Shown here piece after piece: positions 55,441 through 63,083 of a stretch of DNA of 64,000 nt; position 1 is the first letter of the stretch; every line of letters starts with the position of its first letter. The position numbers and the translations under genes are program-made. Origin of the DNA: Pedobacter montanisoli (lineage in GTDB: Bacteria > Bacteroidota > Bacteroidia > Sphingobacteriales > Sphingobacteriaceae). Under the pieces are notes generated by a model. It was not told the DNA's origin, made no database searches, and saw only the letters and a program-made list of their open reading frames with translations. The stretch covers positions 868,001-932,000 of the forward strand of contig NZ_JALGBH010000001.1 in the NCBI RefSeq assembly GCF_022809115.1, in the 5' to 3' direction.

Positions 55441-55590
55441 AACGGGGTTGTCCAAAAAGGTCTGCCGTCACTCTATTCCGATAGCTATTGGAATTATTTC
55501 AGGATCTCTTTGTAGAGTTACTACAAGATGTTTCAGATTCTGAAACAAGTTCAGAATGACGAATCTGAAAACTTTTTGGACAGCCCCGTT
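55441..55590. repeat. MITE-like element with 19-bp terminal inverted repeats
   Basis: The ends (aacggggttgtccaaaaag and ctttttggacagccccgtt) are inverted copies with one mismatch. The ~110-base interior includes cagattctgaaacaagttcagaatgacg-type sequence, a pattern that recurs between genes in Sphingobacteria. It has no coding capacity. It lies right after carB. Confidence 0.7.
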
Positions 55591-55610
55591 TGCTACAACC
55601 TTGTTTACAA

Positions 55611-55645
55611 AAAATCCCGTTTGGCAACGCCAAACGGGATTTTTT
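55611..55645. terminator. terminator between carB and the DUF4397 gene
   Basis: Perfect stem (aatcccgtttggc with gccaaacgggatt), three-base loop, flanked by A/T runs on both sides. It can serve both converging genes. Confidence 0.85.
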
Positions 55646-55662
55646 CATGCACCAAATAAAAA

Positions 55663-56370
55663 TTACTGGTGCTTAATTACCTGTATATTTAAACCTCTTT
55701 CATCTGCAGCCGGATTGCTGTAAACCCCGCCTGCAAAGATGGTATAGACATTTCCAATCTCAATTTTCACATCATCACTCTCGGCTTTAACCGTTCCCGT
55801 TGAGTTTTCTTTTAAATTAAATTTTATTGTGCCCGCATCTACGGCTGTGTAAGTTCCATAACCTTTATAAGGGATATTACTGCTGATGGCGCTGGTTTTA
55901 TCTTTAACAAAGAGATCAAGAGCCGGAGCATTTAATGACAGGTTAATAAAACGTACATAAGCTTTTTTAATATCTAAATTAGAAAGATTATCAACCACCG
56001 TAAGCAATTCAAACTGGTTAGCTTTTCCTAAAAGATAATAGCTGGTTAATACATCCTGCTGTAGGTTAAGGCCAGACTTACTGAAAGCATCCTGAGATTC
56101 TCCAGCTACTTTGAACTTAATGTCATAAGTTCCAACAGGGTACTGGGTATTCTTGATACCACCACCGTAAGGAATGGCTACACTATTCGCTTTATTACCG
56201 TTGTAATAAATGTCGTACGTTAAAAATGTAGGAGAAGCGTTATAAATTCTTAATACTCCGGCAGTGGGAGCAGGGTCGTTTTTGCTTTTACAGCCAAAGC
56301 TTAGGGCCATTACGGCAAAAGCCATAAATAAAGTAAACGGTTTAAGCATTTTGTAGAAGTTGATATTCAT
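55663..56370 (-). CDS. DUF4397 domain lipoprotein
   Basis: 235 residues (start may be the second Met, 56349, which gives a shorter signal). A lipoprotein-like signal ends at C27 of the long form (LSFGC). The mature protein has the DUF4397 pattern: two beta repeats with RIYNASPTFLTYDIYYNG and VRFINLSLNAPALDLFVKD. Envelope protein of unknown role, common in Bacteroidota. Confidence 0.85.
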   Translation of the reverse strand: MNINFYKMLKPFTLFMAFAVMALSFGCKSKNDPAPTAGVLRIYNASPTFLTYDIYYNGNKANSVAIPYGGGIKNTQYPVGTYDIKFKVAGESQDAFSKSGLNLQQDVLTSYYLLGKANQFELLTVVDNLSNLDIKKAYVRFINLSLNAPALDLFVKDKTSAISSNIPYKGYGTYTAVDAGTIKFNLKENSTGTVKAESDDVKIEIGNVYTIFAGGVYSNPAADERGLNIQVIKHQ

Positions 56371-56528
56371 GCGCAGTAAAAATTAAAAAAATCAAGCAAA
56401 TCTAACTACTTAATTTTATTTAGAATACAAATATGGCTTTTATCTTAAAAAGAGTGATGTTAAACTTTGTTAAAAGCACAAAGATTCGTCAAAAAAGCAG
56501 TTGATTTTGGTAAAAAAATAAGAAAATT

Positions 56529-56560
56529 ATTGCACAATCCAATTTTTATTTAAACCTTTG
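56529..56560 (+). promoter_or_regulatory. promoter of the arginine operon (putative)
   Basis: TTG (56530-56532) and AACCTTTG (56553-56560), 20 bases apart, fit the Bacteroidota -33/-7 arrangement with one mismatch. Confidence 0.45.
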
Positions 56561-56585
56561 CAGCACAATAATTTTCAACAGTAAA

Positions 56586-56720
56586 ATGAGCAAACATATT
56601 TTTCATAAATTATCTGTTCTTGAGGCAAAAAACATTGCTTCAAACAGCTATTTTATTGAGCGTTTGCGCCCCGTTTTTTACATTACCACAAGCCGGCAAA
56701 TCTTTACGCCGCGTATTTAA
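56586..56720 (+). CDS. putative 44-residue leader peptide of the arginine operon
   Basis: An ATG frame of 44 codons starts about 25 bases after the putative promoter and ends 94 bases before the first operon gene. The peptide begins MSKHIFHKLSVLEAKNI and carries four Arg codons in its last 19 positions (ERLRP, TSRQ, TPRI). Between it and the GNAT gene lies a small hairpin (tgagga/tcctca) and a T-run. Translation-coupled attenuation is possible but unproven. Confidence 0.4.
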   Translation: MSKHIFHKLSVLEAKNIASNSYFIERLRPVFYITTSRQIFTPRI

Positions 56721-56814
56721 GTTTACCCTTTTCCCGGAACTTATACCATGAGGAATTGATCCTCACTAAAAACCCAATTAACAAAATACTCTTATTTTTT
56801 TCGTTAGAATATTA

Positions 56815-57510
56815 ATGAATCTAAACGATTTTATAGTGCAGGTGGCCTTACCTGAACATCGTGTATTTGCAGAAGAAATCGTAACCGAGATGGCCGAATC
56901 TGCAAAAGCCAGAGGTACAGGTATTGCAAAACGCTCACCAGAATACGTGGCTAATAAAATGCAAGAGGGAAAATCCGTAATCGCATTTCATAAAGATGGA
57001 ACCTGGGCAGGTTTCTGCTATATAGAAACCTGGAGCCATGGGCAGTTTGTTGCAAACTCTGGGCTGATTGTAAGCCCTAAATTCCGTAAAGCCGGACTGG
57101 CAAAAGCCATTAAGGAGGAAATCTTTAGCCTATCAAGAAAACTGTATCCAAAAGCTAAAATATTTGGCCTAACTACAGGTTTGGCAGTAATGAAGATCAA
57201 TTCTGATTTGGGTTACGAACCGGTTACCTATTCTGAGCTTACGCAGGATGAAGATTTTTGGAAAGGATGCCAGAGCTGCGTAAACTTCGAGATATTGAAG
57301 ATGAAAGACCGTAAAAACTGTATGTGTACGGCAATGCTTTATGATCCGGCAGAGAAGAAACATGAAGCAGCCAAAATTTTCGCAGAAGAACTTCAAAAGA
57401 AACCTAAACTTTATGAACGTTTTATGCGTATTAAACAAAGACTGATTTTGAAACAAAGAACCGGTCTTAAATCATTAATTGTTTTGTTTACCCTAATATT
57501 TGATAAATAA
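56815..57510 (+). CDS. GNAT acetyltransferase, probable N-acetylglutamate synthase of the arginine operon
   Basis: 231 residues. GNAT core: VIAFHKDGTWAGFCYIETW, LIVSPKFRKAGLAKAIKEEIFSLS (acetyl-CoA loop), and IFGLTTGLAVMKINSDLGYEPVTY. Its place directly before argG (no gap) and the absence of argJ or a classical argA make it the likely first enzyme, acylating glutamate. Bacteroidota are known to use acetyl or succinyl forms, so the acyl donor is not certain. Confidence 0.8.
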   Translation: MNLNDFIVQVALPEHRVFAEEIVTEMAESAKARGTGIAKRSPEYVANKMQEGKSVIAFHKDGTWAGFCYIETWSHGQFVANSGLIVSPKFRKAGLAKAIKEEIFSLSRKLYPKAKIFGLTTGLAVMKINSDLGYEPVTYSELTQDEDFWKGCQSCVNFEILKMKDRKNCMCTAMLYDPAEKKHEAAKIFAEELQKKPKLYERFMRIKQRLILKQRTGLKSLIVLFTLIFDK

Positions 57511-58698
57511 ATGAAAAAGAAAGTTGTTTTAGCATTTAGCGGCGGCTTAGATACCTCATTTTGCTGTATTTATCTGGCAAAAGACAGAGGTTTGGAAGTA
57601 CATTCTGTTGTAGTTAACACGGGAGGATTCTCTGAAGAAGAACTACTTGAAATAGAGAAGAAAGCCTATAGTTTAGGAGTAGCTTCGCACGCTGCGGTAG
57701 ATGAAACAGAGAACTATTACAACGATAGTATCAAATATCTGGTTTACGGAAATGTACTTAAAAATGCAACTTATCCTCTTTCGGTAAGCGCAGAACGTGT
57801 TTGTCAGGCAACGGCTATTGCAAATTATGTTAAAAAGATTGGTGCAGATTATGTTGCACATGGCAGTACCGGAGCAGGTAATGATCAGGTACGTTTTGAC
57901 ATGATTTTTAATATTTTAATTCCTGGGGTAGAGATCATTACTCCAATCAGGGATTTAAAATTATCCCGTGAAGCAGAAATAGAATATCTGGCTAAACATG
58001 GTGTAGAGTACAGTGCAGAAAAAGCAAAATATTCAATTAACAAGGGTTTGTGGGGTACATCGGTTGGTGGAGTAGAAACACTAACCTCAAACCAAACTTT
58101 GCCTGAAAGTGCGTGGCCTACACAGGTTACTGAAACAGAAGGCCGTAAAGTTGAACTGACTTTTGAAAAAGGCGAACTGACAGCAATTGATGGCGAGAAA
58201 ATGGGCCCGGTTAAAGTAATTCAGAAATTACAGGCCATTGCTCAGCCTTATGGCGTAGGCAGAGATATACATGTCGGAGATACCATTATAGGCATTAAAG
58301 GACGTGTAGGTTTTGAAGCCGCAGCACCCGTGGTCATTATCAAAGCGCATCATACTTTAGAGAAACATACTTTAACCAAATGGCAGTTAAGCTGGAAAGA
58401 AAACTTGGCCTCTTTCTACGGGAACTGGTTGCACGAAGGTCAGTTTCATGATCCGGTTATGAGAGATATTGAAGCTTTTTTAACTTCTACACAGAAAACT
58501 GTTAGTGGTAAAGTGTTTGTAGAACTGCTTCCTTACCGTTTCCATATCATCGGTATAGAATCTGATCACGATTTGATGAGCAATAAATTTGGTAGTTACG
58601 GAGAAATGAACAATACCTGGTCTGGCGAAGACGTAAAAGGTTTTTCTAAGATTTTCGGGAATCAAGTAACAATATGGCATAAAGTAAATGGGAAGTAA
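57511..58698 (+). CDS. argG: argininosuccinate synthase
   Basis: 395 residues. Joins citrulline and aspartate with ATP. The N-terminal PP-loop-type VVLAFSGGLDTSFCCIYLA is intact, as are AHGSTGAGNDQVRFD and YSINKGLWGTSVGG. Its start codon follows the previous stop directly, so translation is coupled. It comes before the reductase and transferase genes, an order that is usual in Bacteroidota. Confidence 0.96.
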   Translation: MKKKVVLAFSGGLDTSFCCIYLAKDRGLEVHSVVVNTGGFSEEELLEIEKKAYSLGVASHAAVDETENYYNDSIKYLVYGNVLKNATYPLSVSAERVCQATAIANYVKKIGADYVAHGSTGAGNDQVRFDMIFNILIPGVEIITPIRDLKLSREAEIEYLAKHGVEYSAEKAKYSINKGLWGTSVGGVETLTSNQTLPESAWPTQVTETEGRKVELTFEKGELTAIDGEKMGPVKVIQKLQAIAQPYGVGRDIHVGDTIIGIKGRVGFEAAAPVVIIKAHHTLEKHTLTKWQLSWKENLASFYGNWLHEGQFHDPVMRDIEAFLTSTQKTVSGKVFVELLPYRFHIIGIESDHDLMSNKFGSYGEMNNTWSGEDVKGFSKIFGNQVTIWHKVNGK

Positions 58699-58728: not shown

Positions 58729-59088
58729 ATGCAGAATTACAAAGACTTATTGGTATGGCAAAAGGCGCATCGTTTTACATTAAAAATGTATGCGGTTGTT
58801 TCGGCTTTCCCAAAGGAGGAAACATACAATTTAACGAGTCAAATTAAAAGGTCTGCATCATCTATTGGAAGCAATATTGCCGAAGGATGTGGTAGGTTTA
58901 CATCAAAAAATTTGGCAAGCTTTTTACAAATTGCTTTGGGCTCTACCCACGAGTTAGAATATCAATTACTATTATCAAAGGATTTAAAATTCATTGATGA
59001 AGAATTATTTATAGAATTAGAGAAAGAAGTAGGCGAAATTAAGGCAATGTTAATTTCGTTAATCAAGAAGGTTAGACTAGCACCCTGA
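58729..59088 (+). CDS. four-helix bundle protein (S23-type)
   Basis: 119 residues. The family pattern is clear: YKDLLVWQKAHRFTLKMY, FPKEETYNLTSQIKRSASSIGSNIAEGCGR, and a helical ELEYQLLLSKDLKFI tail. These proteins occur as intervening-sequence products in 23S rRNA genes and as free-standing genes of unknown role. It sits within the arginine operon between argG and argC, 30 bases from the first and 32 from the second, which suggests it is a passenger. Confidence 0.85.
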   Translation: MQNYKDLLVWQKAHRFTLKMYAVVSAFPKEETYNLTSQIKRSASSIGSNIAEGCGRFTSKNLASFLQIALGSTHELEYQLLLSKDLKFIDEELFIELEKEVGEIKAMLISLIKKVRLAP

Positions 59089-59120: not shown

Positions 59121-60098
59121 ATGATTAAAGCAGGTATTATAGGAGGGGCAGGATATACAGGCGGAGAAATGTTGCGTATTCTCATCAATCATCCGCAAGT
59201 TGAGCTTGTTTTTATAAACAGTAGCAGTAATGCCGGAAACTTAGTTTCCGATGTACATACAGATTTAGTAGGCGATACAGATTTGAAATTTACAGATGAA
59301 ATAGTTCAGGATATTGATGTACTTTTTCTTTGTGTAGGTCATGGCGATGCCCGAAAATTTTTGGAAGCTAATCCTATTGACGAACAGATCAAAATTATAG
59401 ACTTATCGCAAGACTTTAGGTTAAGTCGTAATTCATCAATTGAAAATCGTCAATTCATTTACGGTCTTCCTGAACTGAATAGAGAAGCTATAAAATCGGC
59501 ACAGAATATTGCTAATCCGGGTTGTTTTGCTACATGTATAGAACTGGGTTTATTACCACTTGCTAAAGCAGGTTTATTACAGTCAGAAGTTCATATCAAC
59601 GCTACAACAGGTTCTACAGGAGCCGGACAAAGTTTAAGTAAAACATCTCACTTCAGCTGGCGCAACAATAACTTATCGGCTTATAAAGCATTTGAACATC
59701 AACATTTAAATGAAATAAGCGAAAGTTTAAAGCAATTGCAGGGAGAGCTTAATTATGCATTGAATTTTATACCTCAACGAGGTGATTTTGCAAGAGGTAT
59801 TTTAGCCGCAATGTACATTGACAGTAACTTAACAGAAGAAGAAGCTTATCATCTGTATGAAACGTATTATGCTAATCATGCCTTTACGCATGTAAGCCGG
59901 AAAAATATCGACCTCAAACAAGTTGTAAACACCAATAAGTGTTTGGTACATATAGAAAAACATGGTAACAAGTTATTGATCATAAGTATTATAGACAATC
60001 TGTTAAAGGGAGCCAGCGGACAGGCCGTTCAAAATATGAATTTGCTGTTTGGTTTGGAAGAAACAGCAGGACTGAAATTGAAAGCGGTTGGGTTTTAG
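59121..60098 (+). CDS. argC: N-acyl-gamma-glutamyl-phosphate reductase
   Basis: 325 residues. NADPH-dependent third step of arginine synthesis. GIIGGAGYTGGEMLRIL at the start is the nucleotide loop; NPGCFAT holds the catalytic Cys; TGSTGAGQSLSKTSHFSWRN follows. It is of the shorter type 1-like length. It lies 27 bases before argD. Confidence 0.95.
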   Translation: MIKAGIIGGAGYTGGEMLRILINHPQVELVFINSSSNAGNLVSDVHTDLVGDTDLKFTDEIVQDIDVLFLCVGHGDARKFLEANPIDEQIKIIDLSQDFRLSRNSSIENRQFIYGLPELNREAIKSAQNIANPGCFATCIELGLLPLAKAGLLQSEVHINATTGSTGAGQSLSKTSHFSWRNNNLSAYKAFEHQHLNEISESLKQLQGELNYALNFIPQRGDFARGILAAMYIDSNLTEEEAYHLYETYYANHAFTHVSRKNIDLKQVVNTNKCLVHIEKHGNKLLIISIIDNLLKGASGQAVQNMNLLFGLEETAGLKLKAVGF

Positions 60099-60125: not shown

Positions 60126-61256
60126 ATGAATTTATTTGACGTTTATCCATTAAACGATATAGAAATAGTAAAAGCATCGGGCAGTTATGTTTGGGATGCT
60201 GAAGACAAAAAATATTTAGACCTGTATGGTGGACATGCTGTAATTAGTATCGGACACACCCATCCACATTATGTAAGCCGTTTAACCAGTCAGTTAAATA
60301 AAGTAGGATTTTATTCTAATTCGGTTAAAATTGCTGTTCAGGTACAGTTAGCAGAGCTACTAGGTAAAGTATCAGGCAAAACAGATTATCAATTGTTCTT
60401 GTGTAATTCTGGAGCAGAAGCTAATGAAAATGCATTAAAACTGGCATCTTTCTACAACGGGAGGAAGAAAGTAATTGCTTTTAAAGGTGCCTTTCATGGC
60501 AGAACTTCTCTTGCTGTCGCAGCAACAGATAACCCTAAGATTGTAGCTCCGGTAAATGAAACAGGAAATGTAATCTTTTTGCCTCATAATGATGAACAGG
60601 CTTTAGAAGATACTTTTAAAGCACAAGGTCATGAGATCTCGGCAGTAATTATTGAGGGTATTCAGGGTGTAGGAGGTATTAAAGAAGCTTCAAAATCTTT
60701 TTTACAAAAAATACGTTCACTTTGTGATCAGTACAATGCCGTTTATATTGCAGATAGCGTACAATGTGGTTACGGCAGAACAGGCTTATTCTATTCACAT
60801 GATTGGGCTGGTATAAATGCAGATGTTTATACTATGGCCAAAGGTATGGGTAACGGATTCCCAGTTGCGGGCATTTCTATTGCACCAAAATTTAAGCCTT
60901 GGCATGGAGAATTGGGAACTACCTTTGGTGGAAACCATCTGGCATGTGCAGCAGCCCTTGCTGTTCTGGAAACAATTGAACAAGAAAATTTGTTAGAAAA
61001 TGCCAGGAATATAGGAGATTACCTTATTTCAGAATTGAAAAAATTTGAGCAGGTTACAGCAATACGAGGCAGAGGTTTAATGATTGGCATTGACTTGCCT
61101 GAAGAGCTTTCTCATGTAAAGAAAGAGTTATTGTTTAAGCACCATATTTTTACAGGTGAGGCTAAACCTAATGTTATCCGTTTATTGCCTGCTTTAAACC
61201 TGGATAAAACTCATGCCGACGAGTTTTTAACAGCTTTTGGCAAACTGGTTAAATAA
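60126..61256 (+). CDS. argD: N-acylornithine aminotransferase
   Basis: 376 residues. PLP enzyme converting the semialdehyde to N-acylornithine. Class III aminotransferase motifs: CNSGAEANENALKLA, GAFHGRTSLA, and YTMAKGMGNGFPVAG with the PLP Lys. It is the fourth enzyme in the operon and lies 42 bases before the carbamoyltransferase gene. Confidence 0.94.
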   Translation: MNLFDVYPLNDIEIVKASGSYVWDAEDKKYLDLYGGHAVISIGHTHPHYVSRLTSQLNKVGFYSNSVKIAVQVQLAELLGKVSGKTDYQLFLCNSGAEANENALKLASFYNGRKKVIAFKGAFHGRTSLAVAATDNPKIVAPVNETGNVIFLPHNDEQALEDTFKAQGHEISAVIIEGIQGVGGIKEASKSFLQKIRSLCDQYNAVYIADSVQCGYGRTGLFYSHDWAGINADVYTMAKGMGNGFPVAGISIAPKFKPWHGELGTTFGGNHLACAAALAVLETIEQENLLENARNIGDYLISELKKFEQVTAIRGRGLMIGIDLPEELSHVKKELLFKHHIFTGEAKPNVIRLLPALNLDKTHADEFLTAFGKLVK

Positions 61257-61298: not shown

Positions 61299-62282
61299 AT
61301 GAACCTTTTCACGTCCGTTCATGATGTTACAGACATCAAACAATTGGTAGCCGATGCATTGGCTTTGAAAGCAAATCCATATGCGCATAACACATTGGGT
61401 AAGAACAAGACTTTAGGTCTGGTTTTTATGAATCCAAGTTTAAGAACACGGCTAAGTACCCAAAAAGCTGCCATGAATTTGGGAATGAACGTCATGGTAA
61501 TGAACATGGATAAAGATGGCTGGGCTTTAGAAACACAAGATGGTGTGGTAATGAATGGTAATACAACCGAACATATACGTGAGGCTGCGGCAGTGATGGG
61601 GCAGTATTGCGATATTTTAGGCTTACGTTCTTTTCCTAAGCTAAAAGATAGAGAAGAAGATTATAGCGAAGGCTTTTTTAACAAATTTGTACAGTTTTGT
61701 GGTGTTCCGGTAATAAGTCTTGAAAGCGCAACCAGACATCCTCTGCAAAGCCTTGCAGATTTGATTACCATTGTAGAAACTAATCCTGTGCCTATAGAAC
61801 AAAGAGCACAGGGTAAAAAGCCTAAGGTGGTATTGGCATGGGCTCCCCATGTTAAACCTTTGCCGCAGGCAGTACCTAACTCTTTTGCCGAGTGGATGTG
61901 TAAAGCACAGGAATTGCATATGATTGAATTTGTAATTGCACAACCAGAAGGGTTTGAACTGGCCGATGAGTTTACAAAAGGTGCAGAAATTGTACATAAC
62001 CTGGATCACGCAATAACAGATGCAGATTATGTGTATGTAAAGAACTGGAGCAGCTATAAAGAATACGGACAAATATTACCTTATGAAGGAAATTGGATGA
62101 TGAACAACGAAAAGCTTGGCCTTACCAATAATGCTAAAGTTATGCACTGTTTGCCCGTACGCCGCGATTTAGAATTGGCCGCAGAAATACTGGATGGTCC
62201 AAACTCATTGGTTATTCAAGAGGCAGGTAACAGGTTATGGTCGGCTCAGGCTGTTTTAAAAGCACTGCTTGAAAATCATTAA
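61299..62282 (+). CDS. argF': N-acetyl- or N-succinylornithine carbamoyltransferase
   Basis: 327 residues. In place of the ornithine enzyme's STRTR loop it has FMNPSLRTRLST, the mark of the carbamoyltransferase that uses acylated ornithine; HCLPVRRD is the second catalytic loop. Bacteroidota use this route, so acylation is kept until after carbamoylation. Which acyl group is used cannot be settled by reading alone. It consumes carbamoyl phosphate made by CarB, encoded upstream at 52.5 kb. Confidence 0.93.
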   Translation: MNLFTSVHDVTDIKQLVADALALKANPYAHNTLGKNKTLGLVFMNPSLRTRLSTQKAAMNLGMNVMVMNMDKDGWALETQDGVVMNGNTTEHIREAAAVMGQYCDILGLRSFPKLKDREEDYSEGFFNKFVQFCGVPVISLESATRHPLQSLADLITIVETNPVPIEQRAQGKKPKVVLAWAPHVKPLPQAVPNSFAEWMCKAQELHMIEFVIAQPEGFELADEFTKGAEIVHNLDHAITDADYVYVKNWSSYKEYGQILPYEGNWMMNNEKLGLTNNAKVMHCLPVRRDLELAAEILDGPNSLVIQEAGNRLWSAQAVLKALLENH

Positions 62283-62294
62283 CCAATTATAGAT

Positions 62295-63083
62295 ATGGAA
62301 AAGCTAACCATTGTTAAAATAGGCGGAAACGTAATCGACGATTCAGAAGCACTGCATGATTTTCTGAGAGATTTCTCTGCTGTACCAGGTAAAAAGATCT
62401 TGGTACATGGAGGAGGTAAAATAGCTACAGAATTATCCGGTAAATTAGGCATAGAAGCGCAAATGGTTGAAGGGCGGCGTATTACCGATATAGAAACCCT
62501 GAGAGTAGTTACAATGGTATACGCCGGCCTAATCAATAAAAATATTGTAGCCCAACTGCAATTGGTTAATTGTAATGCCATTGGGCTTACAGGTGCAGAT
62601 GGAAATATTATCAAAGCTCAAAAAAGGCCCGTAAAAGTAATAGATTATGGTTATGTGGGCGATTTAGATGATTCTTCTGTTTCGGCAAAAATGCTAAACA
62701 ACCTGTTGGAAGGTGGCTTTGTTCCTGTTTTTTGTGCAATTACGCATGATAAGGAAGGGCAGTTGCTCAATACCAATGCCGATACAATTGCTGCAGTAAT
62801 TGCGGTAGCGATGTCTGCACAGTACGAAACAGAATTGGTGTATTGCTTTGAAAAGAAAGGCGTTTTAAAAGATGTAAATGATGATACAACGGTGGTAAGA
62901 ACTGTAAAATCATCTCAATTCGAAGACTTTAAGGCAGATGGTACCATAGCCGGAGGAATGGTGCCTAAATTGCAGAATGCTTTTGATGCTATTCATAAAG
63001 GTGTGGCGGCTGTATATATTGGCAAGGCAGATGAACTTCCAATGCTAAATAAGGGAATATTCGGTACCAGAATGGAAGCATAA
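62295..63083 (+). CDS. argB: N-acylglutamate kinase
   Basis: 262 residues. Second step of the pathway. KIGGNVIDD, LVHGGGK, the GLTGADG segment and the C-terminal IAGGMVPKLQNAF match the amino-acid kinase family member ArgB. It starts 12 bases after the carbamoyltransferase stop. Arginine feedback residues cannot be assessed by eye. Confidence 0.95.
   Translation: MEKLTIVKIGGNVIDDSEALHDFLRDFSAVPGKKILVHGGGKIATELSGKLGIEAQMVEGRRITDIETLRVVTMVYAGLINKNIVAQLQLVNCNAIGLTGADGNIIKAQKRPVKVIDYGYVGDLDDSSVSAKMLNNLLEGGFVPVFCAITHDKEGQLLNTNADTIAAVIAVAMSAQYETELVYCFEKKGVLKDVNDDTTVVRTVKSSQFEDFKADGTIAGGMVPKLQNAFDAIHKGVAAVYIGKADELPMLNKGIFGTRMEA

Follow-up and report, generated by a model that had tools for sequence, protein, structure and literature searches.

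The leader peptides of the trp, his and ilv operons are ribosome-mediated attenuators of amino-acid operons. TnaC, SpeFL and the fungal arginine attenuator peptide have an amino acid as their ligand, which is arginine itself for the fungal peptide. In Staphylococcus aureus, reporter evidence has revealed that the leader peptide rbfL senses arginine limitation via rare Arg codons and controls translation; rbfL differs from the leader treated here in being a peptide of 8 aa that overlaps the ribosome-binding site following it and acts on a biofilm regulator, and in that stalling lowers expression (PMC13009471). In Bacteroidetes, the Bacteroid-trp RNA motif RF01692, named for trp, has been introduced as a candidate cis-regulatory RNA (PMC2864571), and small ORFs of Bacteroides thetaiotaomicron have been characterized as reminiscent of leader peptides (PMC7366714). 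Flavobacterium psychrophilum, a member of the same phylum, is reported to give strong clues that leader peptides attenuate its amino-acid operons from upstream, but the passage presenting them names neither an arginine operon nor a motif like the one described below (PMC9723704). An arginine leader peptide in Bacteroidota was found in none of the matches listed in the open PMC literature. The remark of the initial annotation that such attenuators are rarely described in this phylum is fair, although the clues from F. psychrophilum, as far as that passage goes, keep it from being absolute.

The locus considered here lies in a window of 64,000 nucleotides of Pedobacter montanisoli, which is the whole stretch of DNA analyzed. 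It resembles the trp, his and ilv attenuators in having a short ORF with codons for the end product before the operon and a stem overlapping the end of this ORF. Unlike them, the Pedobacter form was found without an intrinsic terminator, and it has two conserved Arg codons in register with the stop and amino-acid constraint along the peptide. Conserved amino acids at fixed distances from the stop are shared with TnaC, SpeFL, and the fungal arginine attenuator peptide. The leader differs from these peptides by fixing an upstream Arg codon too and by serving a biosynthetic operon. We know of no sequence relation between the leader and TnaC, SpeFL, or the fungal peptide. Taken together, a cis-acting leader peptide that gives arginine control of the arg operon is the likely explanation of this locus.

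The arginine operon and its leader region

The operon downstream of the leader makes arginine, as argG, argC, and argB are matched above cut-off (Table 1). Its first gene, at a distance of 94 nt from the leader ORF, had no Pfam match at 0.001 and gave a weak match to NCBIfam PRK07757 (N-acetyltransferase; E 4.1e-5, far under its cut-off); it is matched at E <= 1e-75 in 274 of 301 genomes of the family. Between argG and argC (58729-59088) lies an ORF for a four-helix bundle of the 23S rRNA intervening-sequence kind (PF05635, TIGR02436).

Table 1. Features of the arginine locus, in window coordinates
Feature	Position	Strand	Remarks
Bacteroidota-type promoter (candidate)	56530..56560	+	TTG 56530-56532, 20 nt spacer, AACCTTTG 56553-56560
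Leader ORF	56586..56720	+	44 aa, MSKHIFHKLSVLEAKNIASNSYFIERLRPVFYITTSRQIFTPRI, ATG start, TAA stop
Arg codon 37 (-8 from stop)	56694..56696	+	CGG
Arg codon 43 (-2 from stop)	56712..56714	+	CGT; relatives use varying synonymous codons
Hairpin 1	56718..56743	+	TAAGTT 56718-56723 (contains leader stop) / AACTTA 56738-56743
Hairpin 2	56749..56765	+	TGAGGA-ATTGA-TCCTCA; arms 56749-56754 / 56760-56765
AATTAA ... T-run ... CGTTA block, just 5' of first gene	56776..56806	+	Conserved in the alignment of 60 Pedobacter loci
First operon gene, GNAT acetyltransferase	56815..57510	+	Putative N-acetylglutamate synthase
argG	57511..58698	+	TIGR00032 above cut-off
argC	59121..60098	+	TIGR01850 above cut-off
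argD-type aminotransferase	60126..61256	+	TIGR00707 best, under its cut-off
N-acetylornithine carbamoyltransferase type (argF')	61299..62282	+	PRK04523 best, just under cut-off
argB	62295..63083	+	TIGR00761 above cut-off

The promoter-like pair reported upstream of the ORF in the initial annotation is present and is of the Bacteroidota type, TTG and AACCTTTG being named a promoter after what we take to be the consensus of this phylum. A loose form of the pattern, TTG-N18..22-nAnnTTT(G/A)C, occurs in 59 of 60 Pedobacter loci, a count made without shuffle control, and a sigma-70 scan of 55500-58000 returned no plus-strand site at the candidate promoter. The ORF of 44 codons with four Arg codons among its last 19 was also described correctly; they are codons 26, 28, 37, and 43, of which 37 and 43, six codons apart, are well conserved. 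Arg is found at codon 26 in 50 and at codon 28 in 23 of the 58 distinct Pedobacter copies. The hairpin holding the leader stop was absent from the initial annotation. Nearly all of the 60 aligned Pedobacter loci keep a T-run followed by CGTTA (56795-56806), for which no role was found.

Conservation of the leader and of its end

The initial annotation had suggested aligning the leader in related species, and the ORF proved to be conserved there. Searches with a single sequence and with a profile recovered it from 67 of the 69 genus genomes within a family sample of 301 genomes; the other two (G061, G331) have a divergent ORF ending in FRQHYTNRI at about the same distance. In a second sample, 55 of 60 genus genomes match the leader at E <= 0.01, and the five that do not are four genomes that are 78-83% complete (G021, G028, G059, G068) and again G061. 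Only one copy was found in the genome of P. montanisoli itself. In all, 65 of about 104 genus genomes were read at the leader, namely 60 loci together with G005, G307, G255, G061, and G331. The 60 were picked by a pattern (44 codons, Arg at -8, F/Y and later also L at -5, T-P-R at -4 to -2), which dropped G005 and G307; because this pattern required them, the length and the patterned residues arise by construction, as does part of the low dN/dS in codons 35-44, and the CGG codon at -8 and codons 2-34 lie outside it. One leader (L161, G255) has 31 aa with the conserved end kept, and looks like an in-frame loss in the N-terminal part. The loci found by searching are the best-scoring ones, and all tallies count relatives without correction for shared descent.

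Among the 58 distinct Pedobacter copies, dN/dS is 0.28 over the leader, 0.33 for codons 2-34, and 0.20 in close pairs, and the synonymous sites are free (pS 0.52), so that much of the peptide, beyond its Arg codons, is under amino-acid selection in this genus. Judged by these substitution rates, which also indicate its translation, the ORF is a real gene selected as a protein. That it arose by chance within an untranslated leader has a negligible probability: no supporting point was found, and it is contradicted by conservation as a protein at a dN/dS of 0.28, by the register of the end motif, and by the comparison with shuffled sequences that follows.

In 18 other genera of Sphingobacteriaceae, all 83 loci read upstream of the orthologous first gene have a leader; they represent 83 of the 205 genomes from other genera in which the first gene was matched, among the matches listed. 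Their length is 40-45 aa in 82 cases and 33 aa in one. This tally leans to 43 because the finder chose the start closest to 43 aa; it also demanded Arg among the final four residues and two Arg among the final ten. A strict criterion, requiring ATG, a length of 35-50 aa, three Arg among the final ten residues and one among the final three, selects 76 of these 83 loci versus 9 of 3320 dinucleotide shuffles. Outside the family, 63 of the 74 class loci were covered, and the criterion selects 15 of these 63 versus 2 of 1260 shuffles, the 15 being spread over eight families. Among the other 48 class loci, some of which may be paralogues, a number have similar ends that fall under the criterion (e.g., G442, G378), many have nothing, and four have a strong ArgR. 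A profile of the Pedobacter peptide gave no convincing match outside the genus among the matches listed, and the relation to the leaders of other genera emerged only from reading upstream of the first gene. Little is shared between genera beyond the last ten or so residues. In one leader (L179, G263), retained in the tallies, the usual stop after PRV is lost and five more codons are read.

The shared end, counted from the stop, reads R(-8)..F/Y/I(-5)..R(-2)-x-stop. All three residues are present together in 74 of the 83 other-genus leaders versus 1 of the 225 ORFs that the same finder accepted in shuffles. In a gap-free count from the stop, Arg stands at -2 in 83/83, Arg at -8 in 77/83, and F/Y/I at -5 in 78/83 (F/Y in 57), and Pro at -3 is found in 75/83; the 225 shuffle ORFs have Arg at -2 in 69, Arg at -8 in 37, and F/Y at -5 in 28. 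The 15 class leaders show Arg at -2 (15/15), Arg at -8 (12/15), an aromatic residue at -5 (15/15), and Pro at -3 (2/15), of which Arg near the end was part of their selection and the aromatic residue at -5 was outside it. In Pedobacter, Arg at -2 and an aromatic residue at -5 occur in 65 of 65 loci.

The two Arg positions are constrained in different ways. Arg at -2 is encoded by four to six different codons. The upstream Arg codon is CGG in 60 of 60 Pedobacter loci (58/58 distinct copies) and in 4 of the 5 further genus loci, which makes 64 of 65 at -8. Outside Pedobacter, 77 of 83 family loci have CGA-CGA as their first Arg pair, including 33 of 33 in genus g53, and the Pedobacter leaders retain just one Arg at the -8/-7 site. 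CGG and CGA are both little used, accounting for 5% (30/568) and 8% of the Arg codons in the 34 window ORFs of at least 200 aa. The -8 codon varies in the 15 class leaders (9 codons), and Pro at -3 occurs in two of them, so both the codon constraint and the proline are shown for the family only. Thus, Arg at -2 and F/Y/I at -5 are kept as amino acids in register with the presumed stall site regardless of codon, and the upstream Arg is fixed as a codon too. This combination would fit a ribosome slowed at the upstream Arg and a nascent chain that is important at the end. The purifying selection along the peptide and the motif in register with the stop point beyond a counting of Arg codons, and the aromatic (-5), Pro (-3), and Arg (-2) residues suggest that the nascent chain contributes.

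A stronger role of the chain has to be weighed here. The fungal arginine attenuator peptide and TnaC/SpeFL serve as models for an arrest in which R..F/Y.PR-x-stop, lying in the exit tunnel, would at high levels of free arginine halt the ribosome at the stop or beside it and so turn the operon off. This is a different mechanism inside the same general reading, with odds that overlap those of the favored explanation, and it is regarded as possible rather than probable. It would account for Arg -2, Pro -3, and the aromatic residue or Ile at -5 being kept in the family while codons vary, for the register of Arg -2 and the aromatic -5 with the stop across nine families, for a motif register exceeding the shuffle-ORF control, and for purifying selection on the N-terminal part though synonymous sites are free. 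However, sensing by the chain does not need the upstream Arg codon that the family has fixed (CGG 60/60, CGA-CGA 77/83), and the leader of 31 aa in one genus member retains the end without the full chain length.

Another reading holds that the product of the ORF is a small protein acting in trans, its position before the arg operon reflecting simple co-transcription. There is a precedent in the attenuator leader peptide peTrpL, which is reported to act in trans (PMC7298713), and the purifying selection over most of the peptide in Pedobacter agrees with it. The poverty of shared sequence between genera outside the end, the single copy in the P. montanisoli genome, the stop register, the stop-overlapping stems, and the codon constraint argue instead for a cis role, and action in trans appears very improbable.

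The distribution of ArgR also bears on a leader peptide acting in cis, which probably stands in place of this repressor. No match to PF01316 or PF02863 was obtained in the genome of P. montanisoli (controls matched in 9 and 8 of 14 genomes). Of the 247 genomes in a class sample, 11 have an ArgR match; among them, G443 has a bare 25-bit match with an internal stop, and another four lack a match to the first gene. The other six (G091, G407, G440, G471, G501, G529) have strong ArgR matches, and in each the ArgR domain precedes the first-gene match by 40-127 nt, in the same orientation, the first-gene match of G471 containing internal stops. None of four upstream regions from these six genomes passed the leader criterion. 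The presence of argR at the position of the leader in six relatives suggests that a protein repressor and a ribosome-based sensor have been exchanged for one another.

RNA stems and regulatory output

In Pedobacter, the stem at the leader stop has at least 6 Watson-Crick pairs in 34 of 52 distinct contexts versus 17% in shuffles, and at least 5 pairs in 43 of 52 versus 43%. Its arms change together between lineages (TTTAAGT/ACTTAAA, TTTAGT/ACTAAA, TTGAGTTA/TAACTCAA). The second stem, hairpin 2, reaches at least 5 pairs in 36 of 38 distinct contexts versus 22% in shuffles. The stop codon has its own complement downstream in 6/6 TAA, 10/20 TAG, and 14/22 TGA contexts, with the TAG complement also in 4/6 TAA contexts and the TAA complement in 8/20 TAG and 7/22 TGA contexts; as this contingency is crude and not clean, the stem counts against shuffles are relied on instead.

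In genera g55 and g43, two covarying helices are found, both of which are also predicted by RNAalifold. In one, the last codons of the leader pair with a stretch 3' of the stop. In the other, the long helix, the Arg-Pro codons (CGACC) pair with GGTCG ending about 7-10 nt before the first-gene ATG. Over 17 sequences, 90.4% of the cells are paired, versus 32-47% in slid versions. The covariation score is 0.228 versus 0.113 in shuffles (reached by 0 of 500), and 24 cells are changed on both sides versus 8.6 shuffled (0/500); these helices were chosen beforehand on largely the same sequences, and kinship inflates such covariation counts. Pairs with a two-sided change number 5 versus 3.2 shuffled (22/500), and further pair types number 7, under the shuffled mean of 9.0. 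The key change in the long helix (C-G versus U-A, 8 and 8) may have happened only once. The 5' arms of both helices would lie under a ribosome positioned on the Arg codons.

In per-locus tests, the stop stem falls below 0.05 in 10 and the long-range pairing in 9 of 14 g55 loci. Outside g55, the stop-stem test is below 0.05 in three loci, one each in g54, g57, and g59, and in none of 33 g53 and none of 4 g44 loci; no locus outside g55 was below 0.05 for the long-range pairing. Since CGA-CGA is kept in all 33 g53 loci with no pairing partner found, the codon constraint is independent of this pairing. A single RNA architecture for all genera was considered and rejected, as RNAalifold gave nothing in the 33 g53 loci, almost nothing in 7 of g57, and a clear result in g55 and g43. 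At gathering score, Rfam covariance models matched just a tRNA in the window, and neither Bacteroid-trp (RF01692) nor a T-box or the like. In several other genera, small hairpins of the AGACT..AGTCT or TCCGC..GCGGA type occur just before the first-gene start, within the last 60 nt (L174, G109; L178, G119; L180, G123; L184, G120; L186, G110).

The initial annotation had taken a hairpin with a T-run as part of a ribosome-mediated attenuator. The hairpin TGAGGA/TCCTCA is real, but the T-run (56795-56801) begins 29 nt past it, and the two do not form a hairpin-plus-T-run terminator. A terminator scan of the plus strand of 55500-58000 found nothing. A hairpin running directly into a T-run (dG <= -2) occurs in 0 of 40 Pedobacter leaders versus 18 of 160 shuffles, and terminator-like structures at the same threshold in 14 of 42 loci of other genera versus 75 of 252 shuffles, which is no excess; the test covered 40 of 56 distinct Pedobacter leaders and 42 of 83 other-genus loci. 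An intrinsic terminator 3' of the leader was therefore rejected, being absent in Pedobacter and in no excess over shuffles elsewhere.

Classical transcription attenuation, with terminator and antiterminator hairpins, could draw on the tandem Arg codons of other genera, on the stem overlapping the leader stop, and on hairpins resembling terminators that precede the first gene at a few loci (e.g., G119, G246, G120, G123). Against these stand the 40 of 40 Pedobacter leaders lacking a hairpin directly followed by a T-run, the want of an excess elsewhere, and the 29 nt separating hairpin and T-run in the window, so that this explanation is unlikely. Output of the cis-acting leader via translation initiation or Rho is more likely than via an intrinsic terminator. 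When folding was computed with a masking ribosome, the first-gene start was more open than in the free RNA in 2 of 60 Pedobacter loci, in 9 of 14 g55 loci, and in 0-1 loci in each of six other groups, and no consistent start-codon switch appeared across the eight genus groups. What stands of the attenuator originally proposed is an arginine leader peptide, which conservation strongly supports at the level of the genus and the family and in some further families; no intrinsic terminator was found, and only two of the Arg positions are kept.

A candidate arginine sensor of Sphingobacteriaceae

From sequence conservation, the locus belongs to an arginine leader peptide that is common to the family and extends partly beyond it, as a variant of known leader-peptide regulation. 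Translation of the leader ORF would be coupled in cis to operon expression. In the mechanism considered most likely, a shortage of charged Arg-tRNA would make the ribosome stall at the slow Arg codon or codons around -8, the RNA near the stop would stay open, and the operon would be expressed. When arginine is plentiful, the ribosome would finish and depart, the stop-proximal hairpin would form, and expression would fall; in g55 and g43, the Arg codons would then also pair with the stretch just before the start codon of the first gene. Against this explanation count the lack of an intrinsic terminator signal, the predicted openness of the first-gene start, which a masking ribosome altered little or not at all, the differences in RNA stems between genera, the low number of further pair types in g55 and g43, the lone Arg at the -8/-7 site of Pedobacter, and the restriction of the codon constraint and the proline to the family. 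Confidence is evenly divided as to the direction and the step of stalling drawn here.

In a broader and more tentative proposal, these leaders would form a family of bacterial arginine-sensing arrest peptides, about 40-45 aa long and ending in R-x-x-[F/Y/I]-x-x-R-x-stop, to which Sphingobacteriaceae add Pro at -3. Across Sphingobacteriaceae and several related families, they might replace ArgR in controlling the arg operon, the ribosome and the nascent chain acting as a joint sensor. Arginine control by the leader would give the arginine operon of a Bacteroidota family a defined regulator. Whether a peptide in bacteria senses arginine in the manner of the fungal attenuator peptide would become testable, and the end motif could be used to seek such leaders elsewhere.
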